From NCBI RefSeq assembly GCF_005403045.1, contig NZ_BJCL01000009.1, positions 62,001-126,000 of the forward strand: a stretch of 64,000 bases of DNA, in the 5' to 3' direction. The stretch is from Pseudaquabacterium pictum (GTDB taxonomy: Bacteria > Pseudomonadota > Gammaproteobacteria > Burkholderiales > Burkholderiaceae_C). Numbering within the stretch: the first letter of the stretch is position 1; each line of letters opens with the position of its first letter. Below are positions 20,242-61,842 of the stretch, in pieces. The notes beneath the pieces are model-generated. The model saw only the letters and a program-made list of their open reading frames with translations, searched no databases and was not told where the DNA came from. The position numbers and the translations under genes were made by a program.

Positions 20242-20255
20242 GGTTTTGCAGAGGT

Positions 20256-38978: not shown

Positions 38979-40664
38979 TCACGCTGCCGAGTCCATCGAG
39001 AAGCCAGGCACATGCTGCTGCAGCCACTGCTCCAGCATCATGAGGATCCAGACCATCTCGCCATAGTAGCCAGGATGGGCAGGTAGGAGCTCGTCGATCA
39101 GCTGGCGGATGAACACCGGCTGGATGATGCCGCGCGCCGACAGGCTGTGCAGCGAATCAGCCGCCAGCGCCCGGAGGCCGGCGTGCCTGGTCGCCCAGAC
39201 ACCGAACGGCAAGCCGAAACCCTGCTTCTTCTTGTGGATGATCTCGTCCGGCAGGAAGCCGCGCAGGGCTTCCTTGAAGAACCAGCGCAGCTTCAGGCCC
39301 TTCAGCTTGTAGGCCACGGGAAGCCCCAGCGAGAAGTCGAGCAGCGCCTGGTCGAGCATCGGATAACCGACGCTGACGCCGGCCAATGCCGTGCTGCCCC
39401 GCACCTTGGGCAGATCGGCTTCCGCCAGGGTGTAGCGCCAGTCGTAGGCCAGCATGCGATTCACCAGCTTGTCGGTGCCGGCCTCGGCCCAGACCCCGCG
39501 CTGCTGCGCCAGCGGCGCCTCGGTGTCGACGCGGGCCAGGAAGTCCGCGGCAAAGATGTTCTCGTGGCCCAACCGGCGCAGCAGGTTGTACATCTGCAAG
39601 CGGTCCGGCATGGGCACCCGGGCCTGCTCGACATAGCTGTTGCCCTTGCGCAGCAAGGCGATCTTGTCCGCCCCGGGCAGCCCCAGCACCGGCTCCAGCA
39701 GGCCGTTGCGCAGCACACCCGGGACACCGTCGTACCAGGAGAAGACACGCTGCTTGGCATAGCGGCTGTTGCCGCCAAACAGTTCATCGCCGCCATCGCC
39801 GGCCAGCAGCCGGGTGACGCCGTCCTCCCGGGCCACCTTGGCGCAGAAATAGGCCGGCAGCACGGACGAGTTGCCGAACGGCTGGTCGAAGTGGCGGGCC
39901 ACCTGCGGGATGCCTTGGACCAGGTCCTCGGGCGTCACGTAGTACTCGTGGTGGCGGCAGCCGAAGCGTTTGGCAGCGATGCGCGCAAAGGCCATCTCAT
40001 CGTAGCCTTCGGCCTCGAAGCCGATCGAATAGCAGTCGGCCGCTTCGCCCCGCACGCGGCCGATCATGCCGGCGACGGTGGAACTGTCGGTTCCGCCGCT
40101 CAGGAAGCAGGCTGCCTTCGTGCCGTCGAGCTGGTGGGCCACACTGTCCTGCAGCAGTTGCAGGAAGCTCGCGCGCAGGCTGTCGTAGTCGGCGCGGGCG
40201 GGCTCGGTGAACTGGGGAACCCAGTACGGCCGGACATCCAGCCGGCCCGCCTCGAAGACCGCCACATGGCCCGGAGGCAGCCGGTGGATGCCGCGGAAGA
40301 TGGTGCGCGGCGACGGGATGACGTGGAAGTACAGGTAGTCGAAGATGGCCTGGGGATCCACGGGCGTGTCGCCATCGGCCAGCGCATCGGCTCGCTCTGC
40401 ATACCGCAGTTCGCCGCCGACCACGCGGTAACACAGCGACTGCATGGCAAACCGGTCGACCGCCAGCACGGTGCGGCCGCGGCCGTCGCGCAAGCCGACG
40501 GCAAAGTCGCCCGCAACAGCGGGCAGTGCCTTCAGCGGATCGGCGGCCAGGGCCTGGCGCCAAGCTGCAGCCGCGCCTTGCTGGGCTGACAGTGATTGCA
40601 GGGCCGCATCTTGGAATCGGGGAGAGCCGAGGCAGAGGCCGATGTCCGGTACAGAGTGATTCAT
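38979..40664 (-). CDS. Asparagine synthetase-like protein without the glutaminase cysteine
   Basis: A 561-residue protein. The synthetase domain is intact: FLSGGTDSSTVAGM with the PP-loop (189-195), YSIGFEAEGYDEM, LLAGDGGDELFGGNSRY. The N-terminal half follows class II glutamine amidotransferase order (DRFAMQSLCYRV, RYAERADAL) but the protein begins MNHSVPDIG instead of MCG, so the catalytic N-terminal Cys is missing. It should not hydrolyse glutamine; it may use free ammonia, another amine, or serve a different adenylation. Start ATG at 40664 gives the amidotransferase-like first strand; the longer frame is not conserved. Divergent from the flippase gene. Confidence 0.88.
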   Translation of the reverse strand: MNHSVPDIGLCLGSPRFQDAALQSLSAQQGAAAAWRQALAADPLKALPAVAGDFAVGLRDGRGRTVLAVDRFAMQSLCYRVVGGELRYAERADALADGDTPVDPQAIFDYLYFHVIPSPRTIFRGIHRLPPGHVAVFEAGRLDVRPYWVPQFTEPARADYDSLRASFLQLLQDSVAHQLDGTKAACFLSGGTDSSTVAGMIGRVRGEAADCYSIGFEAEGYDEMAFARIAAKRFGCRHHEYYVTPEDLVQGIPQVARHFDQPFGNSSVLPAYFCAKVAREDGVTRLLAGDGGDELFGGNSRYAKQRVFSWYDGVPGVLRNGLLEPVLGLPGADKIALLRKGNSYVEQARVPMPDRLQMYNLLRRLGHENIFAADFLARVDTEAPLAQQRGVWAEAGTDKLVNRMLAYDWRYTLAEADLPKVRGSTALAGVSVGYPMLDQALLDFSLGLPVAYKLKGLKLRWFFKEALRGFLPDEIIHKKKQGFGLPFGVWATRHAGLRALAADSLHSLSARGIIQPVFIRQLIDELLPAHPGYYGEMVWILMMLEQWLQQHVPGFSMDSAA

Positions 40665-40896
40665 CGGTGGGACGCAGATCGTGCGCAGACAGCACACCAA
40701 GCAGCCATTGTCGGCCACAGCAGCGCCGGCCCTGCAGGCTTCTGAAGCCGGCGCCCGCCCCAACGCCGGGGAAGTCGTGAACCATTGGGCAAGCGTGCCG
40801 GCAGTTGCCCGCACCCGGCACACGGAGCGTTCATGGCCGAGCGCGGATACTGTTGTCCCGTATTGCGTCCGATACACAGGACCACAAGCCTCACCC

Positions 40897-42345
40897 GTGT
40901 CGATCCGCCAGTCGCTCGCCTTTTCCTTCCTGGACCGCTATGCCAGTCTGGTGCTGGCCATTGGCTCGTCCATGGCGCTTGCGCGCCTGCTGACGCCCAC
41001 CGAGATGGGGCTGTTCTCGATCACGATGGTGCTGGTGTCGTTTGCCACCATGATCCGCGATCTGGGCGCCGGACAGTACCTGGTGCAGGAGCGCGATCTG
41101 ACGAACGACCGCATCCGCGCGGTCTGGGCTGTGCAACTCGGCGCGGGTCTGTGTCTGGGCCTTCTCACCGCCCTGGCTGCCTGGCCGATCTCGCGCTTCT
41201 ATGGCGAGCCGCGCATGCAGCCGATCTTCTGGGTGCTGGCGCTGGGCTTCGTGCTGACGCCCTTCGGCAGCATCACCTACGCTTGGCTGACCCGCACCAT
41301 GCGCTACGACGCCATGGCCGTGATGCGGTTCGCCAGCAGCCTGGCCGGTGCCATCGTCTCGGTCGGTCTGGCGTGGTACGGGGCCGGACCGATCAGCATG
41401 GCATGGGGATCGCTGGCGGCCACGTGCACGGGCGCACTGGTGTCCATGCGCTTCCGGCCGCGGGAGTTTCCCTGGCTGCCCGGCACCCGCGAACTGCCGC
41501 GTGTGCTGTCGTTCGGCACCAAGCTCACCTCCACCAGTCTGGTGGAAACCGCCACGGCAGGCGCGCCGGAGCTGCTGCTGGGCAAGATCCAGTCGATCAC
41601 TTCGGCCGGCCTGTTTGCGCGCGCCAACACATTGATCGCGATGTTCTCGCGCATGGTCTCGGACGCCGTCAACATCGTGGCGCTGAGCATGTTCGCCAAG
41701 GCATACAGGGAAGGCGGGGATCTGGCGCGCGCCTACCTGACCGCCAACGCGTACATGCTGGCCGTGGGCTGGTCGTTCTCCGCGTTCGTGGGTTGCATGG
41801 CCTACCCGTTGATGCGCGTGCTCTATGGCGACCAGTGGGATGCCGCGGTCGACCTGACCCGGGTTCTGGCGCTCTGGCTCGCAGCCACCGCCCCTGCGGC
41901 ACTGTGCTACCAGGTCCTGCTGGCCTCCGGAGCCGCGAACGTGCTGCTGCGATCGGTGGTCATCTCCGGCGTCCTCACAGTCGTGGGTGCGGCCATCGGC
42001 GCGTGGTACGGCATCCTGGCCACGGGAAGCCTGATGGTTGTCGCGGCCGCGATGGGCACGGTGGTGTGGCTGACCAGCACACGCGGCGTGATCCACTTCC
42101 GTTGGGCTGACTATCTGGACGGCCTGTGGCGCAGCGCCGGCGTGGCCGGCTGCGCGAGCCTGGCGCCGGTCTTGCTGGTCCTGGTCGCCGGACCGCGGCC
42201 CGCCTCCGGGTTGCTGTGGATCCTGATGGCCGCGGCCACAGGCAGCGGGCTCGGCTTCGTGCTGGGCGTTCGCCTGTTCTCGCACCCGATCAGCGCGGAA
42301 GTCGACCGGGCCGTGGCGGCCCTGCGCGCCCGCCTGCCCGCTTAG
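40897..42345 (+). CDS. Oligosaccharide flippase (Wzx/MOP family)
   Basis: A 482-residue membrane protein with about 12-14 hydrophobic segments. The N-terminus SIRQSLAFSFLDRYASLVLA and ALARLLTPTEMGLFSI is the hallmark of polysaccharide-biosynthesis (MOP) exporters that flip undecaprenyl-linked repeats. A GTG at 40897 is selected: it starts exactly at the first conserved amphipathic helix, whereas the in-frame upstream residues (from 40681) are low-complexity and overlap the divergent gene's leader. Convergent with the methyltransferase gene, 28 bases apart. It supports a Wzx/Wzy-type route with the O-ligase-like protein. Confidence 0.92.
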   Translation: MSIRQSLAFSFLDRYASLVLAIGSSMALARLLTPTEMGLFSITMVLVSFATMIRDLGAGQYLVQERDLTNDRIRAVWAVQLGAGLCLGLLTALAAWPISRFYGEPRMQPIFWVLALGFVLTPFGSITYAWLTRTMRYDAMAVMRFASSLAGAIVSVGLAWYGAGPISMAWGSLAATCTGALVSMRFRPREFPWLPGTRELPRVLSFGTKLTSTSLVETATAGAPELLLGKIQSITSAGLFARANTLIAMFSRMVSDAVNIVALSMFAKAYREGGDLARAYLTANAYMLAVGWSFSAFVGCMAYPLMRVLYGDQWDAAVDLTRVLALWLAATAPAALCYQVLLASGAANVLLRSVVISGVLTVVGAAIGAWYGILATGSLMVVAAAMGTVVWLTSTRGVIHFRWADYLDGLWRSAGVAGCASLAPVLLVLVAGPRPASGLLWILMAAATGSGLGFVLGVRLFSHPISAEVDRAVAALRARLPA

Positions 42346-42373
42346 AGCGCAGACTGCTGCCGCTGCGTGGCGA

Positions 42374-43030
42374 TCACGCCGCCTTGACGATCTCCGCGAA
42401 CAGGATGGGCATGGCGTGGTTGTCGTCCTTGATGGTGCGCAGTTGCCGCACCTCGAAGACAGAGGCCAGCAGCCGGCGCAGGGAACCCGCGTTGAACTTC
42501 ACCGTGTGCTCGGGCTCATCGATCGGACCAAGGCAGTCATCCGGCACAAAGATCAGGGCCGATCCGCCCGGCTTGAGCACGCGGTGGATCTCACGCAGAA
42601 ACAGACCGCGCCGGACCAGATGCTCCAGCACCTGGGACGCGATGACCACATCGAAGGTCTGGTCCGGCAGATCGATGGCCGGCAGGACACCGCGGCGCAT
42701 CCGGATGCCTTCCTGCTCCAGGCGGTTGACGGCATAGCTGGAAATCTCCAAGCCATGCAGGTTGGTGAAGCCGCGCGCCTGCAGCCCCCGCAGGATGCCG
42801 CCATTGCCACAGCCCACATCCAGCACCGCCGCCTGCGGGGCCACCATGCCGGCGATCAAATCGGTCTTGCTCGGCCACTCCCGCACGCCGGCATCCCAGG
42901 TTTCAGCCAGCCGCCGGTCCCAGTGTTCCGGGCTGTTGCCACCGCCCCGGCCGATGTTGACCGCGACGTGGTAGGCCAGCGGGAACTGGTTCGACAGGAA
43001 GTTCTTCACGCGCCAGGGCAAGAGTTGCAT
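42374..43030 (-). CDS. Class I SAM-dependent methyltransferase
   Basis: A 218-residue methyltransferase. The SAM-binding motif I is VLDVGCGNGGILRGL, followed by LHGLEISSYAVNRL (acidic residue for the ribose), FDVVIASQVLEHL and LKPGGSALIFVPDDC. The ATG at 43030 is preceded by GGAAAGGGA with seven bases of spacing, so I prefer it over the ATG 36 bases upstream. It may O-methylate a sugar of the polymer or its lipid carrier. It is on the same strand as the phosphodiesterase-like gene upstream but separated by 210 bases. Confidence 0.92.
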   Translation of the reverse strand: MQLLPWRVKNFLSNQFPLAYHVAVNIGRGGGNSPEHWDRRLAETWDAGVREWPSKTDLIAGMVAPQAAVLDVGCGNGGILRGLQARGFTNLHGLEISSYAVNRLEQEGIRMRRGVLPAIDLPDQTFDVVIASQVLEHLVRRGLFLREIHRVLKPGGSALIFVPDDCLGPIDEPEHTVKFNAGSLRRLLASVFEVRQLRTIKDDNHAMPILFAEIVKAA

Positions 43031-43240
43031 TGACAAATCCCTTTCCAATTCATTGTGCGCCGGCACATCTGCACGCCTGAATGTCCACCTGCGTTCATGG
43101 GCAGCGGCAGTTCAAGGCCACTCAACGTGCGCCATGCCAGTCAGTGCGACGCCGAGGTCAAGCAAATGGTGCCCGAAGAACCAGATCGCAAACAAATCGA
43201 TCCGGGGTACCCAACCACCCGCGCTCTCCTGTCGGTGCGA

Positions 43241-44632
43241 TCAGTTCAGCTGCAACTGGCGCCCCCGCATGACCTCGGAAGTCAATCCGAAATGCCCCAG
43301 GATGGTTGGCGCCACATCCAGTATCGACACCTTGTCGGACAGCCGGCGATGTTCACCCGTCTGCACCCAGAAACAACCGTCGGGGTGGTGTCCACCACTC
43401 TTGGTGGCATCGAGCTCGTAGAAGTGGTCAAAGAAGCGCTGAGGAACCAGTTCGGAATTCATCCGCAGCGTGAACATCTGATCAGGCGGCAGGGCGGCAT
43501 ACACCTGCGAACCGAAGATCAGATTTTGCGGGGTGTGACCGTCGCTGGAGTCAAAGAGTTGCCTGCCGTTGACATGCGGCTCATCGATGCGCTTCATGGC
43601 CTCTGCCTTTTGCTGCGCATCGGCGAAGGTCAGGATGTACTGGTGCGCCATCACCGGCTGGATCGCCTGGTAGGTCACCCCCATGCTTCGGAGCAACGAC
43701 GCCACGTCGTGCGGGCGGTAGTAGTGCCGACCGCCCCGGCCTTCATAGGCGGTGTAGGCCTGTTGACTCAGCGCCGTGGCGAACATCAAGCGCGCGCCCC
43801 GCTTGCCGGCGATCTCGAACATCCGCTCCAGCAGCAGATCCATGGCCTGGTAGCCGTACTTGACCGCGTCACCATAGGCAGCGCTGTCGGTGTCCGAGAC
43901 TGGCTCGGAAAACTTGGCGGGCTCCAAGTATCGCCAGTAAGCGTGCTGCAGATGGGCCGTGCTGTTGCTGAAGAACGTCGCGAACTGCGGTCGCTCCCTC
44001 TCGTAGTAGTGCGCAAACACATCCAGCAGGATGCGATCAAGAATATGAACACGCTTCCAGCTGACCGGCACCTTGGAGGTCTTCTCGGAGACAACCTGAC
44101 TGACGGCAGCAGCGACCGTCGAAGCACGCAAGCCGTGGCCCAACAGGAATTTCGTCAATCCTGCCAGCTCGGCCACACCCCATCTGGCGTTGCTCTGCTC
44201 CTGGATCGCCTTCTTCAGGAACACGCCAAACGGCGCAAGATCGCCTGGCGAAACCGCTTGTTGGTCGTTCCACGGATCAGGCAGAAAGACGCTTCCTGGC
44301 TGATCAAATCCTCGGCAATTCATGCTGGAGAAGTTCATCACCCGCATGCCATGGTTGAGGAGGATGTCCCAGACGCTGGCGTCAGTCAGCTTGGCGCCTT
44401 CCGACAGGCGGAAGACACCGTGCTCCTTGAAGGGCAAGCCGGTGTGCAAGGAATACCACTGAATCCAGGGCTCGAGATTGGGTGCGCCCAACTCGTCAGC
44501 CTCGGTCACGCAGATGGTTGAGGAGTCACGAAGCCGCTTGAAATTGGGCAAGTCTCCAGCGTCGATCCACCTGTCGAGCAGCTGCGGACTGAGTTCATTG
44601 AATTCCAGAAGGATGACGGGAGGCGCGGTCAT
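43241..44632 (-). CDS. Alkaline phosphatase superfamily protein (type I phosphodiesterase-like)
   Basis: A 463-residue protein with the layout of alkaline-phosphatase-superfamily enzymes: an N-terminal metal-site strand VILLEFNELSPQLLDRWI, a nucleophile-region SLHTGLPFKEHGVF, FFSNSTAHLQHAYW in the middle and DATKSGGHHPDGCFWV plus VSILDVAPTILGHFG at the C-terminus. No signal peptide or membrane span is seen. Proteins with this LEFNEL start occur in polysaccharide loci; their substrate is unknown, but transfer or removal of a phosphate-linked group on the glycan is plausible. The gene looks less GC-rich than its neighbours, which may indicate transfer. Confidence 0.75.
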   Translation of the reverse strand: MTAPPVILLEFNELSPQLLDRWIDAGDLPNFKRLRDSSTICVTEADELGAPNLEPWIQWYSLHTGLPFKEHGVFRLSEGAKLTDASVWDILLNHGMRVMNFSSMNCRGFDQPGSVFLPDPWNDQQAVSPGDLAPFGVFLKKAIQEQSNARWGVAELAGLTKFLLGHGLRASTVAAAVSQVVSEKTSKVPVSWKRVHILDRILLDVFAHYYERERPQFATFFSNSTAHLQHAYWRYLEPAKFSEPVSDTDSAAYGDAVKYGYQAMDLLLERMFEIAGKRGARLMFATALSQQAYTAYEGRGGRHYYRPHDVASLLRSMGVTYQAIQPVMAHQYILTFADAQQKAEAMKRIDEPHVNGRQLFDSSDGHTPQNLIFGSQVYAALPPDQMFTLRMNSELVPQRFFDHFYELDATKSGGHHPDGCFWVQTGEHRRLSDKVSILDVAPTILGHFGLTSEVMRGRQLQLN

Positions 44633-44858
44633 GGAAGGACTCGTTTCAGCAAATGGCGCACACAGGGCTTGCTCTGCACGGGCACCTGGTCAGAGGTCTC
44701 GTCCGCTTGCCCCGAATTCGGCCCGATTGTGGAGCAGCGGTCGGTGCGAGCCACGGATCGATTCCGCGTCCACCCCGCGAATGGACGCCCGCTGACCAAA
44801 CACATTTCACACAAGAAGCTGACCATCGGCACAACGCGGCGGCGGTGCCATCCGCGGC

Positions 44859-44877
44859 CGATCGGTTCGACCGATCG
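44859..44877. repeat. 19-bp perfect inverted repeat (operator candidate)
   Basis: CGATCGGT - TCG - ACCGATCG has two perfectly complementary 8-base arms around a 3-base centre. No T-run follows on either strand, so it is not a terminator. Its place in a divergent spacer suggests a binding site for a dimeric regulator. Confidence 0.5.
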
Positions 44878-44954
44878 TCGCGCGCAGCCAAGCCGAGGCC
44901 TGCGCTGCCCGGGATCCGCCCGGCAGACCGTGTTCCTCACAGCGCAACACGTCA

Positions 44955-44985
44955 GCGGTTGTCGGCAAAGCTTACAAACAACCGC
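44955..44985. repeat. Inverted repeat GCGGTTGT / ACAACCGC with 15-base spacer
   Basis: The arms at 44955-44962 and 44978-44985 are perfect complements. The site lies about 108 bases upstream of the lipoprotein start, in an A/T-richer patch. It could be an operator or a leader hairpin; chance occurrence cannot be excluded. Confidence 0.35.
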
Positions 44986-45092
44986 GGAGTGCCGCAGCCG
45001 GTCTCCCCAAATGGCTGTGGCGATTGAGGATTCGCGGACCGGTACGAATGCTGCTTTCATGCCTCAACCCAAGGCACCGCCCGCTCCTGCAC

Positions 45093-48000
45093 ATGAGATC
45101 CCACCCCGACAAGACCTCCGATTCAATGCAACGCGGCTGGAAGCCGACCGCCCATGCAACCGTCGTCGCAGTCGCCACCTTGCTGAGCGCCTGCGGTGGC
45201 GGCGAGTCCGACGGCACGGCAACCGCCCAATCCCAGGCCGGAGCCGCCACGACGGCCGCGTCGGCCGACCAGACCAGCGAGGTCACCGTCCAGGCGGACA
45301 GCAAGCAGGTGGCCCGGCTGGGCGAGTTCCAGTCGGTGGATGGCCATCTCGCCAAGTCGTCGAAGGTGCTGCGCGGCGTCGGCACCGTGACCATGACGGC
45401 CAAGGTGCCGCGGGCCGGCCGCTACGAGTTGTCGGTCTGGTGGCCGCAGGGCCTGACCGATGCCGGCCAGATCGACATCGAGGTGGCGCAGTCCTCCGGA
45501 CAGGCCGGCGCCGTCCGCAAGGACCAGCGCGTCAACGGTGGCGAATGGATCTCCATCGGCGTCTACGACATCGCGTCGGCCGGTGACGCCGCCGTCCGGT
45601 TCAACAGCCAGAGCGGCGGCGCCATTTACGTGGATGCCGTGCGACTGCGCGAGTTGGGCCGCAACGAGAGCGATCTGCCCGCCATCGCCACCGAGCAGTT
45701 GCCGATCGGGCTCAAGGGAGAAGCGTACGTTGCCGACCTCGCGACCGCGGGTGGCCGTGCGCCGTTGAGTTTCTCGGTGTCCGAAGGTGCGCTGCCCCCC
45801 GGCCTGTCGCTGGACAAGGCGACGGGCGTGATCACGGGCCAACCGACGGCGCGGGGCAGTTTCGATGTCGGCATCGCCGTGCGCGACGCGCAAGGGCGCA
45901 CCGTTGCCCGCAGCTTCTCGGTGGTGATCGAGGCGTCGGCCAGCCGCGCCAGCGAAGCCAAGGGGCAACCACCGGCATCCGGTCGCAAGAGTGCGCAGTC
46001 CCTCGGCGCGGCTGGCAGTGCCAGCGCCCCGCCCGACCTGACCAACATCCTGACCACCGTCGCCAACATGCCCGAGGGCGAGTGGCAGAAGGTCAACCTC
46101 AACCGCTTCGCCGATGTCTGGGCCCCGGCTGATCTGCGGCCGCTGTTCGGTTCTGGCAACCCCGAGCCGTCGAGGATCATCCTGGCCTGGAGCAGTTTTG
46201 CCTGGGATCCCAACCGCGCGGCGTTGATCCTGTATGGTGGCGGTCACGCCAACTACCGTGGCAACGATGTGTACCGCTGGTTCGCGTCGACGCAGCGCTG
46301 GGAGCGCGCGGCCTTGCCCAGCCAGATGGTGCAGACCCCGCAGGGCCAATGGAACGCGATCGACGGTGCAGACAAGGCGCCTGCCTCGGCGCACACCTAC
46401 GACAACACGATCTTCCTGCCAATCCTGGACCGCATGCTGGTGCTGGGTGGTGCAGCAGACCCGAATGGCTCGCACTACCTGACACCGGCCTCCGCAACCA
46501 CCACCCGCGTCACCGGCCCGTATCTCTTCGACCCGGCACGCGCGCACCCGGACAAGGTCGGCGGCAGCACCGGCTCGCATGTCAAGCGCGTCGCGCCGTA
46601 CCCAGAGGTTGTCGGCGGCAACATGTGGTCCAACCGCGAATCCTGGCTCAATGCATCGACCACATCGAAGCCCCCCGTTGAGTCGTTCGTCAACGGATGC
46701 ACTGGGTATGCGATGGAGAACGGCCGGGATGTGGTGTACGCCCGCACGGCCAACCGGCTGTACCGGTACGAGATCGGCGACCTGTCCAACCCGGCCACCG
46801 ACACCTGGCGTCAGGTCGGCACGTACTGGTTCGGCGGTTCCGGCGGCAAGAGCACCTGTGCCTACGACCCCGATCGCAAGATCTTCCTGTCGACCTACCA
46901 GCAGAACAGGCTGATCTATTGGCCGTTGAACACCCTCAGTCCCAACACGCGGGACACGCTGGTGACACCGACCGATCCCACCGGAGAATTTGCCACGCTG
47001 GTGGCCAGCGGTGCGGTCAAGCTGAGCGACTGCGCCATCGACTTCGATCCGATCCGACGCGACTTCAAGCTGTGGTGCGCCGATGCCCGGGTGTGGAGCA
47101 TCAAGCCGCCGGCAACCATGGGCGCAGCGGGTTGGGTGGTGGAGAAGCAGACGCCACCCACCGGAGCGGCTCCGACCGAGGGCGTGGCACTCGGGATTCT
47201 GGGCAAGTGGAAGTACATCCCCAACCTGGACGTCTTCATGGGCCTGGCCGACTCCGTGCAAGGCAACATCTGGATCTACAAGCCGCGTGGCTGGGTCAAT
47301 CCCGGTAGCGGAACGCCTTCGGGCAACGTGGCGCCGTCGGTGAGCCTGGGTTCACCTGCGCCGGGCGCCAGCTTCACGGTCGGCACCAGCATTGCGCTGA
47401 GCGCCGCCGCCTCGGACAGCGACGGCGAAGTGGTCCGGGTGGAGTTCTTCGCGAATGGGACGAAGATCGGGGAGAGCACCACCGGACCGGGGTACGGCAT
47501 CGTCTGGCCGGATGCAGCGCCTGGCACCTATGCGCTGACTGCCGTGGCCACCGACAACGGCGGCGCATCGCGCACGTCGGGCACGGTGTCCATCACGGTC
47601 AATGCCGTGGTGAGCAACCAGCCGCCACTGGTGGCGCTGACCCAGCCTGTCGCGGGCGCGGTGTTCACGGTGGGCAACCCGGTCACCCTGGCGGCCACGG
47701 CATCCGACCCGGATGGAACCGTCGCCAGCGTCGAGTTCTTCGCAGGCAGCACCAGCCTGGGCACCGTGAGCAGTGCGCCGTACACCCTGACCTGGACCAC
47801 GGCGCCGCTGGGCACGAGTTCCATCACCGCCGTGGCCAGGGACAACGCCGGCGCGGTGACATCGACGGCCGCCAACGCCATCACCGTGCAGGCAGTGGGC
47901 ACCGGCGGCACCGCCACCCTGCAGCGTGGCAGCGCAGTGCCGTCGCAGGTCTGGGACACCTACCTGTCCTCGTACCACAAGACCTTGAACTTCGGCACAA

Positions 48001-48482: not shown

Positions 48483-48530
48483 ACGCCCGAGGATGCCGCC
48501 CTGACCTGTTCAGGGCGGCGCCTTCCGAGG

Positions 48531-49268
48531 CTACCTGGAGGCAGCAGGTGCTGGTGAGGCGATTGCCGCCGGGACTGGCAGGCTGCCAGATGCCGCTGTC
48601 GACGGTGCCGGGGATGCTGGCTCCCGCCACTGCCCGGCCTGGCGCAAGCGATCCCGCAAGCCGGTCCGCTTCACGCCGAGTTCTTCGGCACGGTAGGCCT
48701 GCTGACGGGCCTGGTCGTACTTCTTCAGATCCAGATAGATCAGCCCGGCGTTGTAGTGCGCGAGCGGGTTGTCTCCAGCCAGGGTCACCGCGTGGTCGAC
48801 CTGCGCCGCGGCGGCGATCGGGCGCTTGGTGCGGTGCAGGTGGTCAGCAAAAAGCAGCCGGGAGACCGTGTCGTCCCGTGCAAACCGCAGCGCCCTGTCG
48901 AACCAGCAGTCCACCGAAAACTCCGATCCGTTCACCTGGACGGTCTTCTCCCGCTCAGCCAGCCTGGACATCGACACCAACGCCCGGTGGTGGTTGGGGA
49001 AGTGCCGCAAGGTGAAGGAGATGTCCGCGCCGATGACCGAGGTGCTCTCGCCCTTGACGAGCCGCTCCACATTGGGCGTGAAGTGGTAGCGCTCGACCTT
49101 GCCAAGCCGGTTGTCGCGGATGGAGCGGTAGTCGTGCGGGCCGTTGTCGATCGGCGGAAAGCCGCCGCAGACACTGGCCCCGGCAAAGACCGGCTCCTCG
49201 GCGGGCTGCGCCAGCGCTGCCAGCGGCACGCTGGCCGTCATCAACACCGTCAACAGCAAGCGATGCAT
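48531..49268 (-). CDS. Secreted TPR-containing hypothetical protein
   Basis: A 245-residue protein with a signal peptide (MHRLLLTVLMTASVPLAALA, cleavage before QP), two cysteines that could form a disulfide (Cys34 region SVCGGFPP and SVDCWFD), and a short tetratricopeptide-like helix pair (AHYNAGLIYLDLKKYDQARQ). The last 35 residues are Ala/Pro/Ser-rich. I do not recognise a named family. It is downstream of the TIGR03087-type glycosyltransferase (36-base gap) and probably the last gene of the right-hand minus-strand operon; a periplasmic scaffolding role in the secretion machine is a guess. Confidence 0.7.
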   Translation of the reverse strand: MHRLLLTVLMTASVPLAALAQPAEEPVFAGASVCGGFPPIDNGPHDYRSIRDNRLGKVERYHFTPNVERLVKGESTSVIGADISFTLRHFPNHHRALVSMSRLAEREKTVQVNGSEFSVDCWFDRALRFARDDTVSRLLFADHLHRTKRPIAAAAQVDHAVTLAGDNPLAHYNAGLIYLDLKKYDQARQQAYRAEELGVKRTGLRDRLRQAGQWREPASPAPSTAASGSLPVPAAIASPAPAASR

Positions 49269-49303
49269 GGCTCGGGATTCCTGGTCTTGGGAGGTGCGCG
49301 CGC

Positions 49304-50518
49304 TCACTGTGGCGTCGATGTCGTTCGGGACAAGCGGGCGCGGCATTGCGCGATGATGGCATCCATCCGCTTCATCGATTGCGCCCAGTCATGGTTGGAC
49401 AGCACCCGCTGCCGGCCGTTCCCGGACAAGCGCTGCCGTTCCAGCGGATCTTGCACCACCTCGAGCACGGCGGCTGCCAGCTCCTCGGGAGAATCGGCCA
49501 CACGCAAATGCTCGCCCGGCACGGCATCCACGCCACCGGCGGCAATCGAACTGGTGATGACCGGTACCCCCATGGCCATCGCCTCGAGGATCTTGTTCTG
49601 CGTGCCGCGCGCGATGGCCAGCGGGGCGACCATCGCGGCCGAGCGGCGCACGAACGGCCGCACATCGGGAACCGAGCCGGTGACGGTGACACCAGGACGC
49701 TCGCCCAGACGGCGCATCTCGGGCGAGGGGTCGGCGCCGACGATCAGCAGCTTCATGCCGGGCCGCCGCGCCTGCAGCAGTGGCCAGACCTGGTCGCAGA
49801 AGCGCTGCATGCACTCCTGGTTGGGGTAGTAGTCCATGCGGCCGATGAAGCTGATCGTGTCGGCGTCATAAGGCTCGTCGGTGGGTGCGAAGAACTGCGC
49901 GTCCACACCGTTCGGGAACCAGTCGGTCGGCGCCCCGGTGCCGTAGCTGTCCAGGGTCTCGCGTTCGGCCCGGGTGGTGGCGGTGCAGAGGTCGAACTTG
50001 CGCGCCAGGCGCTTCTCCGCCCACAGCACCTTGGTGCCTTCCAGGGTGTAGCCCCAGGACAGCGGCCAGGGCTTGTAGTTGGCGTACTCCAGCCACTTCT
50101 GCGAGTCCATGTCGCCGAAGTCGAGGATCTTCGGGATGCCCTGGACATGCTCGACATATTGCGCCACCGACGAGCAATGGACGAAGATCAGGTCGAAGCG
50201 CTGGCTGGACAGCAATTCGCGGATGCGCCGCTGCAGGTCGGCGCTGTAGAAGTAGCCCATCGACGACGGCGTGCGCCGCGGCAGGTTGGCCACCATGCGG
50301 GCGAACTGCACCGGTTCGCGCACGGCGCCCATCTCGAACGCCGCGCAATGCGCGGCGATGCCACGGCCCTCCTCGGCCTCCTCGGGCGACCGCACCAGCG
50401 AGCACACCGTCACCTGGTGGCCCTGGGCCGTGAGGTGGCGGATCATGTTGAACGGGCGGATCTTGCCGCCGCGCTTCGGCGGGTACGGGAAACGGTGGCA
50501 GACGTACAGGATGTTCAT
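49304..50518 (-). CDS. TIGR03087-type glycosyltransferase (XrtA/PEP-CTERM system)
   Basis: A 404-residue GT-B glycosyltransferase. The N-terminus ILYVCHRFPYPPKRGGKIRP is diagnostic of the sugar transferase subgroup tied to exosortase A loci. ILDFGDMDSQKWLEYA and WFPNGVDAQFFAP lie at the domain junction; the donor domain has GRMDYYPNQECMQRFCDQVW, VAPLAIARGTQNKILEAMAMG and PVITSSIAAGG. It probably adds one residue of the repeat unit on the cytoplasmic face. Start overlaps the stop of the amidotransferase gene (ATGA). Confidence 0.95.
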   Translation of the reverse strand: MNILYVCHRFPYPPKRGGKIRPFNMIRHLTAQGHQVTVCSLVRSPEEAEEGRGIAAHCAAFEMGAVREPVQFARMVANLPRRTPSSMGYFYSADLQRRIRELLSSQRFDLIFVHCSSVAQYVEHVQGIPKILDFGDMDSQKWLEYANYKPWPLSWGYTLEGTKVLWAEKRLARKFDLCTATTRAERETLDSYGTGAPTDWFPNGVDAQFFAPTDEPYDADTISFIGRMDYYPNQECMQRFCDQVWPLLQARRPGMKLLIVGADPSPEMRRLGERPGVTVTGSVPDVRPFVRRSAAMVAPLAIARGTQNKILEAMAMGVPVITSSIAAGGVDAVPGEHLRVADSPEELAAAVLEVVQDPLERQRLSGNGRQRVLSNHDWAQSMKRMDAIIAQCRARLSRTTSTPQ

Positions 50519-52443
50519 GCCGTGACGAGGCGCTTGAGCTCTTCGGCGATGTCGGCCGGATCGCGTCGATCGAGGTAGAGCAGGCTCCAGATCTCCAGGT
50601 TCATCATCGCCAGCAGCACGTCGGTGCCGTCGATGCGGTTGGCCTCATGGTCCGACACCAGGCGCTGCACCACCGGCGCATGGAACAGGCCGCGCCGCTC
50701 CAGCACCGCAGGCGCCAGCAGCCCGCGCAGCACCGGCGCCAGTTCACGCTTCAGCCAGGCGCCCATCGGGGTGCCGAAACCGCGCTTGGGCCGGTGCAGG
50801 ATGTTCTGGGGCAGCAGATCGCCCAGTGCCGATTTCATCAGGTGCTTCAGCTGGCCACCCGGCACCTTGATGTGCTCGGGCATGGCCGCCGCCAGTTCGA
50901 CGAGCTCATGGTCGAGCAGCGGCACGCGGCATTCGAGCGACACGGCCATGCTCATCTTGTCGGTCAGCATCAGCAGGTCGTCCGGGAGCTGGGTTTCCGC
51001 GTCCACGGCAAACATGCGGTTGAGCGCATCCGCATCCCCGGCGCCTGCAAAGGCCCGGGCCAGGGCATCGTCGCCGGGCGGGCTGCCGCCCACCAGCAGT
51101 TGCGCCACCTCGGCCCGCCCGATCACCTGCAGGTAGCTGCGGTAGCGGTCGTCCGGGTGCATGCCGGCGCTGGCGACGAAGCCCTTGACCAGCCGGAGCT
51201 TGTTGAGCAGCCCGGAGTGCCGGTCTGCCGGCAGGCGGGCGGCCACGGCGGCCACCAGCTGGCGCAGCGGGCCCGGCAGACGGTTGAACCGCGCGGCATA
51301 GTGGCCGCCCAGATACCGGCGGTAGCCGCCGAACAGCTCGTCACCACCAACGCCGGACAGGATCACCTTGACATCCTGCCGGGCGAATTCCGAGACCAGG
51401 TAGGTCGTGATGAAGGCCGTGTCGGCCACCGGCTCGTCCATGTGCCACAGCAGGCGCGGCAGCAGCCCGACCACATCGGGCTTGACGACGATCTCCCGGT
51501 GCTGCGTCCCGAACATCCCGGCCACCTGCCGGGCGTAGGGCAACTCGTTGTAGAGCGTCTCGGCCTCGCCACCCTCGAAGCCGATGGCGTAGGTGCGGAT
51601 CGGCTGGTCCGAGTGGCGGGCCATGTAGCCGACAACCGCACTCGAATCGACGCCGCCCGACAGAAACGCACCGATCGGCACATCGCTGACCATCTGCATC
51701 CGCACCGATTTCTCGAGCTGGTCACGCGTGCGGTCCAGCCATTCGCTGGCTGTCCAGCGGCGCTCGATGGCCGTCGGCAGCCGCCAGTAGCGCCACTGGC
51801 GCACCTGGCCGTTCTCAACCGACAGGAGGGTGGCCGGCGGCAGCTTGCGGATGCCCTTGAACATGCTGGCGGGCGCAGCGACATAACCCAGGTGCAGGTA
51901 GTCGGCGACCGCGTCGCGGTTCAGTTCGGCCCTCACGCCCGGCAGCGCCAGCAGCGCCTTGGCCTCGGTCGCGAAAGCCACCCGGCGGCCATCCTGCAGC
52001 ACATACAGCGGCTTGACACCGAGGCGGTCGCGCCCGATCAGCAGGCGTTGGCGCCGCGCATCCCACAGCGCAAAGTCGAACATGCCGTTGAGCCGGTGCA
52101 CGCAGTCGTCGCCTTCGGCGTCGTACAGATGCAGCAGCACCTCGCTGTCCGAACCGGTCTTGAACCGGTAGCCCTTGGCCTGCAGTTCGGCGCGCAGTTC
52201 ACGGAAGTTGTAGATCTCGCCGTTGCACACCAGCACCAGCGAACCATCGGCATTGCTGATCGGCTGGTGGCCGCCGGCCAGGTCGATGATCGACAGCCGG
52301 CGCATCGCGATGCCACAGGCGCCGTCGATGTGCTGGCCCTCGTCGTCGGGGCCGCGATGGCGGGTGACGTCGCCCATCGCGCTGAGGAGCGACGGCTGCA
52401 CCGGCTGGCCGTCGAGGTGGTAGATGCCATGGATACCGCACAC
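50515..52443 (-). CDS. Asparagine synthase (glutamine-hydrolysing)-like amidotransferase
   Basis: A 642-residue two-domain enzyme. The glutaminase domain begins MCGIHGIYHL with catalytic Cys2, then RHRGPDDEG, GGHQPISNADGSLVLVCNGEIYNF and RDRLGVKPLY. The synthetase domain has GAFLSGGVDSSAVVGYM and ILSGVGGDELFGGYRRY. The start codon is GTG with AAGGG eight bases upstream. In this setting it is more likely to amidate a sugar carboxylate than to make asparagine. One of three such proteins in the locus, lying between two XrtA-type glycosyltransferase genes. Confidence 0.93.
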   Translation of the reverse strand: MCGIHGIYHLDGQPVQPSLLSAMGDVTRHRGPDDEGQHIDGACGIAMRRLSIIDLAGGHQPISNADGSLVLVCNGEIYNFRELRAELQAKGYRFKTGSDSEVLLHLYDAEGDDCVHRLNGMFDFALWDARRQRLLIGRDRLGVKPLYVLQDGRRVAFATEAKALLALPGVRAELNRDAVADYLHLGYVAAPASMFKGIRKLPPATLLSVENGQVRQWRYWRLPTAIERRWTASEWLDRTRDQLEKSVRMQMVSDVPIGAFLSGGVDSSAVVGYMARHSDQPIRTYAIGFEGGEAETLYNELPYARQVAGMFGTQHREIVVKPDVVGLLPRLLWHMDEPVADTAFITTYLVSEFARQDVKVILSGVGGDELFGGYRRYLGGHYAARFNRLPGPLRQLVAAVAARLPADRHSGLLNKLRLVKGFVASAGMHPDDRYRSYLQVIGRAEVAQLLVGGSPPGDDALARAFAGAGDADALNRMFAVDAETQLPDDLLMLTDKMSMAVSLECRVPLLDHELVELAAAMPEHIKVPGGQLKHLMKSALGDLLPQNILHRPKRGFGTPMGAWLKRELAPVLRGLLAPAVLERRGLFHAPVVQRLVSDHEANRIDGTDVLLAMMNLEIWSLLYLDRRDPADIAEELKRLVTA

Positions 52444-52458
52444 GGTGGAAGCCCTTGT

Positions 52459-53676
52459 TCAGATCGGTTCGGGCAGCCGCCGGCCCCGGCGCGCCAGGGC
52501 GCGCCGGTACACCTCGGCATAACGGGCGACGCTGGTGGTCCAGGTGCGCTCGACCTCGACGAACCGGCGCGCCTGCTCGCGGATGCGCTGCCACTGCGGG
52601 CGCTGCGCCAGCACGTCCTCGAGCGCCTGCGCCAACGCACCGGCATCACCGGCCCGGAAGAGAAAACCGGTCTCGCCGTGCTGCACCAGCTCCCGGTGGC
52701 CGCCCACATCGGATGCCACGAACATCCGTCCCTGGGCCATGGCCTCCAGGGGCTTGAGCGGCGTGACCAGTTCGGTCAGCCGGATCGGCAGCCGCGGGTA
52801 GGCCAGCACGTCGATCAGCTCGTAGTAGCGCTGCACCTCGGCATGCGGCACGCGGCCGGTGAACAGCACACGGTCGGCCAGGCCGGCGGCGGCCGCCTGC
52901 GCCCGCAGTGCGCCATCCTGCGGTCCGCCGCCCACCATCAACACCCGCAGATCCGGATGCCGCGGCAACATGCGCTGCGCGGCATCGATGAGCAGGCTCA
53001 GGCCTTCATAGCCGTAGAACGAGCCGGCAAAGCCGAGCACGGTGGCACCCTGCAGACCCAGGCGGCTGCGCAAGGCCTCATCGGGCGGCGCATCGAAGGT
53101 GAAGGCCGTGACATCGACAGCATTCGGGATCACCGTGATCTTGTCCCGCGAAACGCCCCGCTGCGCGATGTCGCCACGCAGGCCTTCGCAGATCGTCGTG
53201 ACCTGGTCGGCCAGGTGCAGCGCCACCGACTCCAGCCCGCGCGAGACACGGTAGCGCAGGCTGCCCTCGGTGGTGGTGCCGTGGTCGACCGCGGCGTCCT
53301 CCCAGGACGCCCGCATTTCATAGACCACCGGTACGCCAAGCCGGCGGCCCACCCAGATCGCCGGCAGCGCGTTGAGCACCGGCGAGTGTGCGTGGATCAG
53401 GTCCGGCTGGAGCTGGCGCACCAGTTCGTCGAGCCGGGCTGCCGTGGACCGCATCTGCCCGACAAGGCCGGTGCCCTCGGCGCTCGGGGTGCGGTGGAAC
53501 GTCCAGCCATCGGCCTCTTCGACCAGCGCGGTTCCGGGCCCCTGCTTCGGTGACGTGAGGTGCTCGGTGTGCCAGCCCAGCCGGCGCTGCTCGCGCAGGA
53601 TGGACAGCGTCCGGAAGGCGTACCCGCTGTGCAGTGGCGCCGAATGGTCAAGAACGTGGAGGATGCGCAGCGGCAT
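52459..53676 (-). CDS. TIGR04063-type glycosyltransferase (exosortase A-associated)
   Basis: A 405-residue GT-B glycosyltransferase. RILHVLDHSAPLHSGYAFRT at the N-terminus identifies the Daro_2409-type group of exosortase A loci. HAHSPVLNALPAIWVGRRLG and EMRASWEDAAVDHG follow; the donor domain has GSFYGYEGLSLLIDA, TELVTPLKPLEAMAQG and FVASDVGGHRELV. ATG at 53676 shares its bases with the stop of the preceding amidotransferase gene; a GTG one codon upstream is also possible. The longer open frame upstream lies in the amidotransferase coding sequence and is not real. Confidence 0.94.
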   Translation of the reverse strand: MPLRILHVLDHSAPLHSGYAFRTLSILREQRRLGWHTEHLTSPKQGPGTALVEEADGWTFHRTPSAEGTGLVGQMRSTAARLDELVRQLQPDLIHAHSPVLNALPAIWVGRRLGVPVVYEMRASWEDAAVDHGTTTEGSLRYRVSRGLESVALHLADQVTTICEGLRGDIAQRGVSRDKITVIPNAVDVTAFTFDAPPDEALRSRLGLQGATVLGFAGSFYGYEGLSLLIDAAQRMLPRHPDLRVLMVGGGPQDGALRAQAAAAGLADRVLFTGRVPHAEVQRYYELIDVLAYPRLPIRLTELVTPLKPLEAMAQGRMFVASDVGGHRELVQHGETGFLFRAGDAGALAQALEDVLAQRPQWQRIREQARRFVEVERTWTTSVARYAEVYRRALARRGRRLPEPI

Positions 53677-55640
53677 CACGCACAAGCCTCCGCCGGCAAG
53701 GTGTGGCCGGATCCGCTGCCATCGGCGTCGACGACATTGCGCAGGAAGGCCTCGAACATCAGCAGGGTCCACAGCGGCGCGCTGTAGTCGCTGGCGCCGG
53801 ACTGGTGGGCGTTCACCAGGTGTTCCAGGTAAGGCCGCTGGAACCAGCCGGTGCCGGCCAGCCGCTCGCCCAGCACGGCATCGCGCACCCGCTGTTTCAG
53901 CGGGCCGCGGAACCACTGGGCCAACGGCACGGCGAACCCCATCTTCGGCCGGTACAGCACATCGTCGGGCAGCAGCGGCTCCATCGCCTTCTTGAGCAGG
54001 TACTTGCCCTCCTGACCGCGGATCTTCAGGCTCGATGGCAGCGTCGCCAGCCACTCCACCAGTTCGTGGTCCATCAGCGGCTCGCGCACCTCCAGGCTGT
54101 GGGCCATGCTGGCACGGTCCACCTTCGTGTTGATGTCGCCCACCAGGTAGGTCTTGGTGTCCAGGTACTGGATCAGCGCCAGCGGATCGTCGCTGGCCGC
54201 AAGGCGGGCATGGTCCGCCGCGTGCCGGTCGAAGACCTCGTGCGCGCCGTAGCCGCCCAGCGCCTGCCGGAACGCCGGGCTGAACAGCTGCTTGCGCATC
54301 GGCCCGCGCAGGATGCTGACGCTGTGGAAATAGGCCTCCACCGCGCTGCGTGCCATGCCCTCGAAGGTGGTCTTGGCGCGGAACATGCGCGGCGCCCAGT
54401 CGGCCTTGGGGTAGAGCCGGCCCAGCGCGCCGAACAGCGGCTGGCGGATGCCGGCCGGCAGCGCGCTGCGCAGCCGCTCTTCCATCAGGTGCATGCGGTA
54501 GCGCCGGTAGCCGCCGAAGCTCTCGTCACCGCCATCGCCCGACAGCGCCACCGTCACCCGCTGGCGCGCCAGCTGGCACACGCGGTAGGTGGGGATGGCG
54601 CTGCTGTCCGCATAGGGCTCGTCGTACAGCCGCGCCAGGGTGTCGATCAGGTCGAAGTCGTCGCTCTTGACCGTCTGCACGAAATGGTCGGTGCGGTAGC
54701 GGTCGGCCACCATCTGGGCAAAGGCCGATTCATTGAACTTCGGGTCGTCGAAGGCGATGGAGCAGGTGTTGACCGGTGCATCGCTGAGGCCGGCCATCGA
54801 GGCGACCACGGCACTGCTGTCGACACCGCCCGACAGGAAGGCGCCCAACGGCACCTCGGCGATCATGCGCAGGCGCACCGACTCGCTCAACCGCGCCCGC
54901 AGCTCGTCGCAGGCATCGTCGGTGCTGATCGGGTTGTCCAGCGTGAAGCGCAGTTGCCAGTATTCCTGCGGGGCCGCCACCGGCTGGCCGCGGCGGATGC
55001 GCAGCTGGTGGCCGGGCGACAGCTTCAGCGCCTGCTTGAAGATGGTGCGCGGCTCGGCCACGTAGCCCAGGGCGAAATACTCCTCCACGGCATGCGGATC
55101 GATGTCGCGCCGCAGGCCGCCCTGGCCACCGTTGTAGGCCAGCACACTCTTGAGCTCGCTGCCGAAGACCAGCCAGCCGTCGTCCAGCATGGCGTAGTAC
55201 ATCGGCTTGACGCCCAGGCGGTCACGCGCCATGAAGAAGGTCTCGCGCTTGCGGTCCCACAGCGCGAAGGCGAACATGCCACGCAGCCGCTGCACACAGG
55301 CTTCGCCCCACGCCAGCCAGGCGTTGACGATGACCTCGGTGTCGCTCTTGGTGCGGAAGGTCAGCCCCAGGGCCTGCAGCTCGGGGATCAGCTCTTGGTA
55401 GTTGTAGATCTCGCCATTGAAGACGATGACCACCGATCCGCAGGCGCTGTGCAGCGGCTGCTGGCCGGTGGCGATGTCGATGATGGACAGGCGCCGGTGG
55501 CCGAAGCCCAGGCCGGGCTCGGTGTGCAGGCTGCCTTCATCGGGCCCGCGGTGGTGCTGGCTGTCGTTCATGCGCTGCAGCACGGTGCGCGAAACCTCGC
55601 GCGCCGCACGCAGATCGAAGATGCCGGTGATGCCGCACAT
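53676..55640 (-). CDS. XrtA/PEP-CTERM system amidotransferase (TIGR03108 type)
   Basis: A 654-residue asparagine-synthase-type amidotransferase. Glutaminase domain: MCGITGIFDL (Cys2), QHHRGPDEGSLHTEPG, GHRRLSIIDIATGQQPL. Synthetase domain: GAFLSGGVDSSAVVASM, ALSGDGGDESFGGYRRYRMH and the C-terminal YRPKMGFAVPLAQWFRGPL. Close in pattern to the exosortase A system amidotransferase 1 family. It should transfer glutamine-derived ammonia to an activated carboxylate, probably a uronic acid of the polymer. Start ATG at 55640 fixes the processed Cys as residue 2. It is separated by 161 bases from the upstream glycosyltransferase gene. Confidence 0.95.
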   Translation of the reverse strand: MCGITGIFDLRAAREVSRTVLQRMNDSQHHRGPDEGSLHTEPGLGFGHRRLSIIDIATGQQPLHSACGSVVIVFNGEIYNYQELIPELQALGLTFRTKSDTEVIVNAWLAWGEACVQRLRGMFAFALWDRKRETFFMARDRLGVKPMYYAMLDDGWLVFGSELKSVLAYNGGQGGLRRDIDPHAVEEYFALGYVAEPRTIFKQALKLSPGHQLRIRRGQPVAAPQEYWQLRFTLDNPISTDDACDELRARLSESVRLRMIAEVPLGAFLSGGVDSSAVVASMAGLSDAPVNTCSIAFDDPKFNESAFAQMVADRYRTDHFVQTVKSDDFDLIDTLARLYDEPYADSSAIPTYRVCQLARQRVTVALSGDGGDESFGGYRRYRMHLMEERLRSALPAGIRQPLFGALGRLYPKADWAPRMFRAKTTFEGMARSAVEAYFHSVSILRGPMRKQLFSPAFRQALGGYGAHEVFDRHAADHARLAASDDPLALIQYLDTKTYLVGDINTKVDRASMAHSLEVREPLMDHELVEWLATLPSSLKIRGQEGKYLLKKAMEPLLPDDVLYRPKMGFAVPLAQWFRGPLKQRVRDAVLGERLAGTGWFQRPYLEHLVNAHQSGASDYSAPLWTLLMFEAFLRNVVDADGSGSGHTLPAEACA

Positions 55641-59885: not shown

Positions 59886-59919
59886 CGCGGTATCCAACTG
59901 CGTCGGTTCGTGTGCACCA

Positions 59920-60969: not shown

Positions 60970-61842
60970 TCAGTTCGCGGCCGCAAGCCGGCCTGGCGAA
61001 GCATGTGGCAGGAAGATGTCGTCCATGCGACCCCAGCGGAAATCGCGCAACAGGGCGTCCAGCCGTTGCTCGGTCCGACCGATGTTCACATAGTGGCGGA
61101 ACCGCGTCTTCAGGTTGATGCCCGGGATGCGGGGTTGGCCGTGATCGATTTCCCAGGGATGGAAATAGAAGATCGCCGGCGCTTGGTCCTCCCGGTTCAC
61201 CCGCTGGATCATCCAGCGCGTCAGCGCGTAGGGGAACAGCCGGAACCAGCCACCGCCCGACGACGGCAGGTTGCGCTCGCCCAGGCGCACGGTGGTCACC
61301 GGCACCTCGAGCAGGCCGTCGCGCACCGCATGGGCAAAGCGCGGCGCGTCGGGCATGCCGTAGTGGTCATGCTGGATCGGATAGATGCTGCTGCTGTAGC
61401 GGTGGCCGGTCTCCAGCAGGCAGTCGAAGGCCCACAGGTTGCCATGGCCGATGGAGAAGCTCGGCGCACGGTAGCCCTGCACTGCCACGCCGCCCACGTC
61501 TTCCAGCAGACGCTTGGCACGCACGATGTCCTGGGTGAAGGCCTCGCGGCTGAGATCGCTGGCGCGCTCATGGCCATGGCCGTGGCTGGCCAGCTCGTGG
61601 CCACCGGCGACGATGCGCCGCACCAGTTGCGGGTAGCGCTCGGCCACCCAGCCCAGGGTGAAGAAGGTGGCTCGGGTGTCGTGCCGGGCCAGCAACGCGA
61701 GGATGCGCTCGACATTGGCCTCGACCCGGCATTCGCGGGTGTCCCACTCGCTGCGGCGGATGTACGGCGCCATCGCCGAGACCTGGAAGTAGTCCTCGAC
61801 GTCGATGGTCAGCGCGTTGGTGATCGGAACAGGCGCGGGCAT
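60970..61842 (-). CDS. XrtA system polysaccharide deacetylase (CE4 plus DUF3473)
   Basis: A 290-residue deacetylase. TIDVEDYFQVSAMAPYIR supplies motif 1 and ELASHGHGHERASDLS supplies the His metal ligands; GYRAPSFSIGHGN is motif 3. The C-terminal DUF3473 region contains FYFHPWEIDHGQPRIPG. This subgroup is tied to exosortase A loci and is expected to de-N-acetylate the exopolysaccharide or its lipid-linked precursor. Sits in a compact run: FemAB 12 bases downstream and wecB 11 bases upstream. Confidence 0.96.
   Translation of the reverse strand: MPAPVPITNALTIDVEDYFQVSAMAPYIRRSEWDTRECRVEANVERILALLARHDTRATFFTLGWVAERYPQLVRRIVAGGHELASHGHGHERASDLSREAFTQDIVRAKRLLEDVGGVAVQGYRAPSFSIGHGNLWAFDCLLETGHRYSSSIYPIQHDHYGMPDAPRFAHAVRDGLLEVPVTTVRLGERNLPSSGGGWFRLFPYALTRWMIQRVNREDQAPAIFYFHPWEIDHGQPRIPGINLKTRFRHYVNIGRTEQRLDALLRDFRWGRMDDIFLPHASPGRLAAAN

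Follow-up and report, generated by a model that had tools for sequence, protein, structure and literature searches.

The 64,000-nucleotide stretch of Pseudaquabacterium pictum DNA analysed here (contig NZ_BJCL01000009.1, positions 62,001 to 126,000; hereafter the window) belongs to an exosortase A (XrtA)/PEP-CTERM exopolysaccharide locus. It holds three asparagine-synthetase-like open reading frames (ORFs), P0001, P0002 and P0003, at the positions given in a preliminary description of the sequence; the genome as a whole contains four genes with the PF00733 domain. Judged by its sequence, P0001 belongs to an unnamed, new branch of the asparagine-synthetase superfamily in which the glutaminase is dead and which is tied to XrtA loci. 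Most likely the amide that it forms takes its amine from a source other than glutamine; the omega-amino group of a carrier-bound aminoacyl unit is our best specific guess at that amine, and ammonia is the main rival. The three genes are as follows.

38979..40664, minus strand: P0001, glutaminase-dead, N-terminally shortened amide ligase of the asparagine-synthetase family (the copy lacking the catalytic Cys)
50515..52443, minus strand: P0002, Cys-type paralogue, an amidotransferase of the AsnB family (TIGR01536 above cut-off; TIGR03108 544.4 bits, below 816.9)
53676..55640, minus strand: P0003, XrtA/PEP-CTERM system amidotransferase (TIGR03108 1052.3 bits)

The Pfam domain Asn_synthase was found in all three proteins, GATase_6 or GATase_7 only in P0002 and P0003. 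P0001 begins MNHS and keeps the synthetase loop SGGTDSS, as first described, and contains neither a glutaminase domain nor a catalytic Cys. Against TIGR01536, the model for glutamine-hydrolysing asparagine synthase, it scored 200 bits, below the cut-off of 267.1, compared with 486 for P0002 and 487 for P0003. Its best NCBIfam model was TIGR03108, which it matched from column 114 on with 230.6 bits (cut-off 816.9), and no NCBIfam model reached its cut-off. The reading frame continues upstream without interruption as far as a stop codon, with a GTG at 40877 as its first start codon, and a search of this open stretch for MCG found none.

Relatives of P0001 were collected from genome contigs (296 found, 80 retained as loci) and from a sample of 300 genomes of the order, the source genome included. 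In the latter, 68/300 had a match at E <= 1e-60; four weak matches of 30–35% identity (G009, G142, G143, G299) were excluded, leaving 64 carriers. A sample of the class, again including the source genome, gave matches in 40/274 genomes. The named genomes with the closest relatives are mostly betaproteobacteria. Chitinimonas is present in both collections (L006/L039) and the rows are therefore partly non-independent. Three relatives (L062, L021, L028) were left out of alignments A1 and A2, and their open frames were used in the motif searches and the tree.

The preliminary description had allowed for homologues that all carry Cys2, with the start of P0001 placed wrongly; what we found instead is that the 130 family ORFs have neither a Cys start nor a glutamine-binding motif. 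In the motif search MCGx, NGEIYN and HRGPD were absent at or before the domain start in 129/130, and the sole match, in L130, is a VCGF inside the domain of a protein that itself starts MQGIFGW. A looser pattern additionally flagged L050, at residue 124 of the frame, beyond the stretch covered by the main search. Moreover, many relatives have no room for the missing part. Among 127 family ORFs that begin away from contig or locus edges, the distance from the stop codon to the position of P0001 Met1 is 0–49 codons in 53 (fewer than 10 in 15 of these) and at least 50 in 69, and 5 begin after that position; 53 + 5 of the 127 thus have too few upstream codons to hold it. A wrong start for P0001 is ruled out by these three observations together: no upstream MCG, no Cys start in the relatives and too few upstream codons in many of them. 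The absence of the glutaminase nucleophile and the retention of the synthetase site, both proposed earlier, therefore extend to the relatives, and by sequence the Cys-less copy represents a real family, not an artefact.

More than the Cys has been lost. Aligned with P0002 and P0003, the relatives examined have the segments RRLSI, NGEIYN and SD[ST]E, which we take to form the glutamine site in Cys-type copies, substituted or gone, and in the window's clade roughly the first 50 residues are missing as well. After removal of L004, which duplicates the window's own gene, 129 rows were classed by their N-terminus (130 before), and 28 of them retain a longer domain starting M-x-x-[IL]-x-G-[WYF]. The position of the Cys is occupied in these by S (16), T (5), Q (3), R (2), K (1) or P (1). 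With this variation Ser was rejected as a replacement nucleophile (as in MSGICGW). Cys5 of the same motif is not favoured as a shifted nucleophile either: it occurs in 21/28, the other motifs are gone and the segment is missing from the window's clade. In a predicted model of one longer relative, L032, the stretch missing from P0001 contains the N-terminal strands 3–8, 30–36, 39–45 and 50–54.

A maximum-likelihood tree of 83 rows (71 family, 12 outgroup, with every third close relative sampled) placed the 71 family rows in one group with support of 100/100. Nested inside the longer form, 34 shortened rows and the divergent L017 make up a single branch (99/99); nine of the 71 rows match neither N-terminal class. 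The glutaminase most likely died once, before some 50 N-terminal residues went in the window's clade, although outgroup and family meet along long branches, which leaves the root and the order of losses less sure than the supports suggest. One P0001 gene among the betaproteobacterial rows of the tree lies on a contig filed as planctomycete (L091), probably a binning error.

The synthetase half of P0001, by contrast with its decayed N-terminal domain, looks intact. Its ATP-pyrophosphatase domain places it in the PF00733 superfamily with 253.5 bits, and the SGGxDSS loop is present in 130/130 family ORFs (SGGTDSS in 127, SGGLDSS in 3), as is GDGGDE. D290–E294, K464, K478 and K480 are invariant in 45/45 members of alignment A1. 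Predicted structures of P0001 and L032 had a pLDDT (predicted local distance difference test) of 91.9 and 92.2, respectively. Among solved proteins, those closest in sequence profile and fold are the TsnB9 hydroxyamidotransferase, E. coli AsnB, beta-lactam synthetase, human ASNS and carbapenam synthetase. TsnB9 (7YLZ), the best match on both counts, keeps an MCG start that aligns with that of P0003 and is lacking in P0001; to judge by its name, it transfers something besides plain ammonia. Beta-lactam and carbapenam synthetases have the asparagine-synthetase fold without a working glutaminase and use an organic amine; they carry out an intramolecular ring closure with a Tyr/Glu catalytic dyad. 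P0001 shares their combination of a glutaminase-dead N-terminal domain and an intact synthetase domain, further shortened in the window's clade, where the first N-terminal strands are missing, and has Asp at the place of the beta-lactam synthetase Tyr. This residue, Asp290, aligns with the Glu of AsnB GEGSDE, which we take to be Glu348.

P0001 co-occurs with XrtA almost obligately. With XrtA scored as TIGR03109 above cut-off, the two genes occur together in 63 genomes of the order sample; P0001 stands alone in 1 and XrtA in 10, and the remaining 226 lack both. P0001 is thus carried by 63/73 XrtA genomes. The lone P0001-only genome has an XrtA match below cut-off, and one of the ten scored negative, G082, does carry a P0001 relative, which follows immediately after TIGR03099 at the edge of a contig. 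Taking the best XrtA match per genome, 34 of the 63 pairs share a contig, at 46 kb or less in 32 cases and widely separated in 2, and the other 29 are split between contigs.

As a tentative reading, given somewhat less than even confidence but more than any of its rivals, we propose that P0001 is an ATP-dependent amide ligase that is independent of glutamine and uses a separate organic amine. It would bind ATP on the SGGTDSS loop and convert a carboxylate, presumably that of a uronic acid in the exopolysaccharide or in a linking sugar, to an acyl-adenylate, which an amine other than glutamine-derived ammonia would then attack. A candidate for this amine is suggested by a group of genes at 18955–27404. 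The ligase, carrier protein, decarboxylase and two hydrolases listed below look like an aminoacyl carrier-protein module of the butirosin/vicenistatin type.

18955..20160, minus strand: pyridoxal phosphate (PLP)-dependent decarboxylase, TIGR03099; BtrK (L-glutamyl-acyl carrier protein decarboxylase) is the closest solved structure
23585..25195, minus strand: AMP-forming ligase, TIGR03098; adenylation regions of non-ribosomal peptide synthetases are the best solved sequence matches
25390..25641, plus strand: probable stand-alone acyl carrier protein; several models match, all below cut-off
25714..26532, plus strand: hydrolase 2, exosortase A-associated, TIGR03101
26529..27404, plus strand: hydrolase 1, exosortase A-associated, TIGR03100

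Against solved structures the decarboxylase scored 261 bits with BtrK, which acts on L-glutamyl-[BtrI carrier protein], and at most 176 bits with diaminopimelate decarboxylases. BtrK makes a gamma-aminobutyryl carrier protein in butirosin biosynthesis (PMC7857480), and VinN-VinL-VinO act alike with 3-methylaspartate in that of vicenistatin (PMC11284099). BtrI-BtrK thus combines a carrier protein with a PLP decarboxylase and VinN-VinL-VinO adds an adenylation enzyme; the module in the window is alike. The butirosin and vicenistatin modules serve antibiotics, whereas the XrtA version stands in an exopolysaccharide locus, often beside P0001. By analogy, TIGR03098 would load the carrier protein with an amino diacid, which TIGR03099 would then decarboxylate, like BtrK and VinO.

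The link to P0001 comes from gene position. P0001 and TIGR03099 share a contig in 37 genomes, and in 24 of them, spanning 9/14 families, the decarboxylase precedes P0001 on its strand by no more than 3 kb. The distance is at most 400 bp in 14/37, with a shortest gap between matches of 6 bp. Neighbourhoods reaching ~8 kb to each side of P0001 were compared for 62 members of the order sample: TIGR03099 precedes P0001 on the same strand in 25, with no intervening window-type gene in 20. Outside the order, TIGR03098 or a carrier protein adjoins P0001 in 5/19 short loci (L121, L122, L128, L131, L133), and the partial genes of the first three have TIGR03098 as their best model. These counts rest on window-type genes, the unannotated clusters being mostly shadow frames of TIGR03099 and TIGR03098. 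Given the position of the module beside P0001 and the likeness of its decarboxylase to BtrK, an omega-aminoacyl carrier protein is the candidate amine, and the neighbourhood suggests it over ammonia from a partner. The omega-amino group would then be the attacking amine and the product an N-substituted uronamide. That this carrier-bound group is the amine of P0001 is a doubtful proposition taken by itself, forming one part of the broader reading; the fuller scheme, in which the XrtA module makes an omega-aminoacyl carrier protein and P0001 couples the amino group of that product with an adenylated uronic acid, is held just as loosely.

Several observations weigh against this scheme. TIGR03099 is present in 39/64 P0001 genomes and TIGR03098 in 41/64, as against 6/10 for each among the XrtA genomes scored P0001-negative, and both are missing from 21/64 carriers. 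A partner fixed by presence and absence was therefore rejected, as the two genes fail to separate P0001-positive from P0001-negative XrtA genomes: the link between P0001 and the module is positional, not one of presence. In the window itself the module genes are ~14–19 kb from P0001, the decarboxylase ~19 kb. A decarboxylase relative lies within 10 kb in just 3/48 long-flank loci nearest to the window's P0001, with upstream, same-strand placement in two of the three (L039, L071). Moreover, the operon counts come from related genomes and are hence not independent. TIGR03108, present above cut-off in 63/64 P0001 genomes versus 6/10 scored negative, tracks P0001 better than the module does, which leaves room for ammonia from P0003. 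Lastly, Asp290 is acidic like AsnB Glu348 and unlike the Tyr of beta-lactam synthetase, and ammonia is thus a possible nucleophile.

The main rival is accordingly that P0001 is an ammonia-dependent uronamide synthetase, using free NH3 or NH3 supplied by P0002 or P0003 to form a plain uronamide elsewhere in the same polymer, on another sugar. We consider this unlikely, though clearly the strongest of the alternatives. The tracking of TIGR03108 speaks for it, as does the acidic residue of GDGGDE at the place of AsnB Glu348, conserved in the whole family; asparagine synthetases, both PesC and canonical ones, accept free ammonia (PMC13060819, preprint). However, TIGR03108 also occurs without P0001 and is no exclusive partner, a P0003 relative was found in just 9/62 of the neighbourhoods, and the N-terminal strands that P0001 has lost may, as alignment and model suggest, include the surface receiving channelled ammonia. 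Less probable again is that amine and carboxylate belong to one sugar or lipid-linked intermediate, the product being a lactam or cross-link as in beta-lactam and carbapenam synthetases and lasso cyclases. Beta-lactam and carbapenam synthetases are among the closest folds, and lasso and macrolactam cyclase models match P0001 weakly, both below cut-off (NF033535, 82.7 versus 525; NF033561, 75.2 versus 300). The shortfall against NF033535 and the Asp in place of the dyad's Tyr make this reading improbable; we also know of no lactam-bearing polymer from XrtA loci, no search for one having been made. A catalytically dead scaffold or regulator of a biosynthetic complex would account for the decay of one of the two domains, but the ATP-pyrophosphatase motifs are retained across the family and P0001 is present in 63/73 XrtA genomes of the order sample, and we regard this last alternative as very improbable.

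An organic amine as co-substrate of P0001 remains our preferred reading, and its interest lies in the polymer. A conserved ligase that should not use glutamine implies that an unusual amide bond may form in XrtA loci, and its frequent pairing with a decarboxylase of the carrier-protein type points to a candidate amine, which makes the nature of the bond assayable. If the carrier-bound amine is correct, the matrix polysaccharide would be decorated with omega-amino-acid amides that keep an activatable carbonyl, perhaps for cross-links or for the attachment of PEP-CTERM proteins.

By sequence, P0002 and P0003 are complete glutamine amidotransferases, as had been supposed, with the Cys, the glutamine-binding motifs and both domains. 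The MCGI start ascribed to each holds as it stands for P0003 (MCGITG); P0002 reads MCGIHG only with GTG as start. The comparison with TIGR03108 called for earlier sets P0003 above the cut-off and the other two below. Cys-type paralogues resembling P0002 (~545–575 bits with TIGR03108) accompany the TIGR03108 gene at up to ~20 kb in several other genomes (G016, G021, G055, G092, G112, G140 and G157 are examples), and P0002-like proteins are an unnamed second amidotransferase of XrtA loci. TIGR03108 (eps_aminotran_1) shares superfamily and locus type with P0001, which is without its Cys and glutamine-binding motifs. The WbpS-type uronamide synthetases (PGN_1234 of P. gingivalis, PMC7468200; WbpS of P. 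aeruginosa, via PMC3684757) are likewise asparagine-synthetase-like and act in uronic-acid glycan pathways. They are described as amidotransferases, whereas P0001 on sequence grounds should not use glutamine, and P0003 is the better counterpart. Amidation of uronic acids, the role first proposed for the locus, is reasonable for P0003 in view of WbpS-type glucuronamide synthesis and its link to exosortases (PMC7468200). In that work a WbpS-type enzyme makes glucuronamide in a sugar also bearing an amino acid, VimA matches the FemAB family TIGR03019, TIGR03108 is the match for the asparagine synthases of exosortase loci, and a similar sugar is suggested for exosortase systems. This fits the presence of P0003, a FemAB gene and a deacetylase in the window.

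XrtA/PEP-CTERM loci have been linked to floc and biofilm matrices (PMC9850573, PMC3684757). The psc1 cluster of Rubrivivax gelatinosus contains three asparagine synthase genes, RGS1_10407, 10423 and 10435, of which the first and last are marked as transposon targets in a search for revertants of a biofilm mutant; RGS1_10435 is paired with Rfer_0683, stands beside wzxC and is labelled glutamine hydrolysing (PMC3684757). In a locus filed as a Rhodoferax ferrireducens isolate (L053), P0001 lies between the Wzx gene and the deacetylase and Wzy genes, matching the order of the Rfer numbers. Because of this agreement RGS1_10435 is probably the counterpart of P0001, by gene order rather than by sequence. 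The three-gene layout is thus already in print, and the loss of the glutaminase is not remarked on in the sections of PMC3684757 covered here. An exosortase-associated amidotransferase is also among the transposon insertions that alter colony form in Sphingomonas (PMC11340318). Our literature search, with subscription literature mostly outside its reach, found no prior account of the Cys-less family or of the TIGR03098/TIGR03099 module in XrtA loci, nor a description of the module's product in exopolysaccharide loci. A term search of Haft 2006 (PMC1569441) gave no match, and in the literature covered we found no polymer structure for XrtA/PEP-CTERM loci.

The remaining features of the window are listed below. 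They include the three nucleotide-sugar dehydrogenases noted previously, which are indeed present, two before the stretch from P0001 to P0003 and one just after it.

20256..21590, minus strand: nucleotide-sugar dehydrogenase, UDP-glucose dehydrogenase-like (TIGR03026 above cut-off)
29568..30884, plus strand: nucleotide-sugar dehydrogenase (TIGR03026)
32046..33440, plus strand: PaaK/CapK-like AMP-forming ligase (CapK named after the psc1 table, PMC3684757)
34486..35448, plus strand: polysaccharide deacetylase (relatives near P0001 relatives in 38/80 loci)
35476..36774, minus strand: O-ligase/Wzy-like protein (TIGR03097)
40897..42345, plus strand: flippase of the multidrug/oligosaccharidyl-lipid/polysaccharide (MOP) type, Wzx-like, divergent from P0001
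56977..58257, minus strand: TviB-like nucleotide-sugar dehydrogenase (TIGR03026 above cut-off; TviB model 470.6, below 592)
58311..59891, minus strand: exosortase A with EpsI domain (TIGR03109)
59920..60957, minus strand: FemAB-like XrtA-associated protein (TIGR03019)
60970..61842, minus strand: XrtA system polysaccharide deacetylase (TIGR03006)
61854..63023, minus strand: UDP-N-acetylglucosamine 2-epimerase WecB

The immediate neighbours of P0001 vary within the close clade, polysaccharide deacetylase and Wzy being frequent. A beta-helix-like protein is found directly upstream of the P0001 relative in 20/80 loci (for example L065:1–1281 and L112:2–1078); the match is weak and sub-threshold (L065), and the protein might be an epimerase or lyase for the same polymer. 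In the window, the neighbour of P0001 at 36909–38909 has a weak, sub-threshold match to Disaggr_repeat and a relative in 1/80 loci, and is perhaps an enzyme acting on polysaccharide. Lastly, a protein resembling phosphodiesterases and nucleotide pyrophosphatases is encoded within the exopolysaccharide locus at 43241–44632, with relatives in 0/80 loci.

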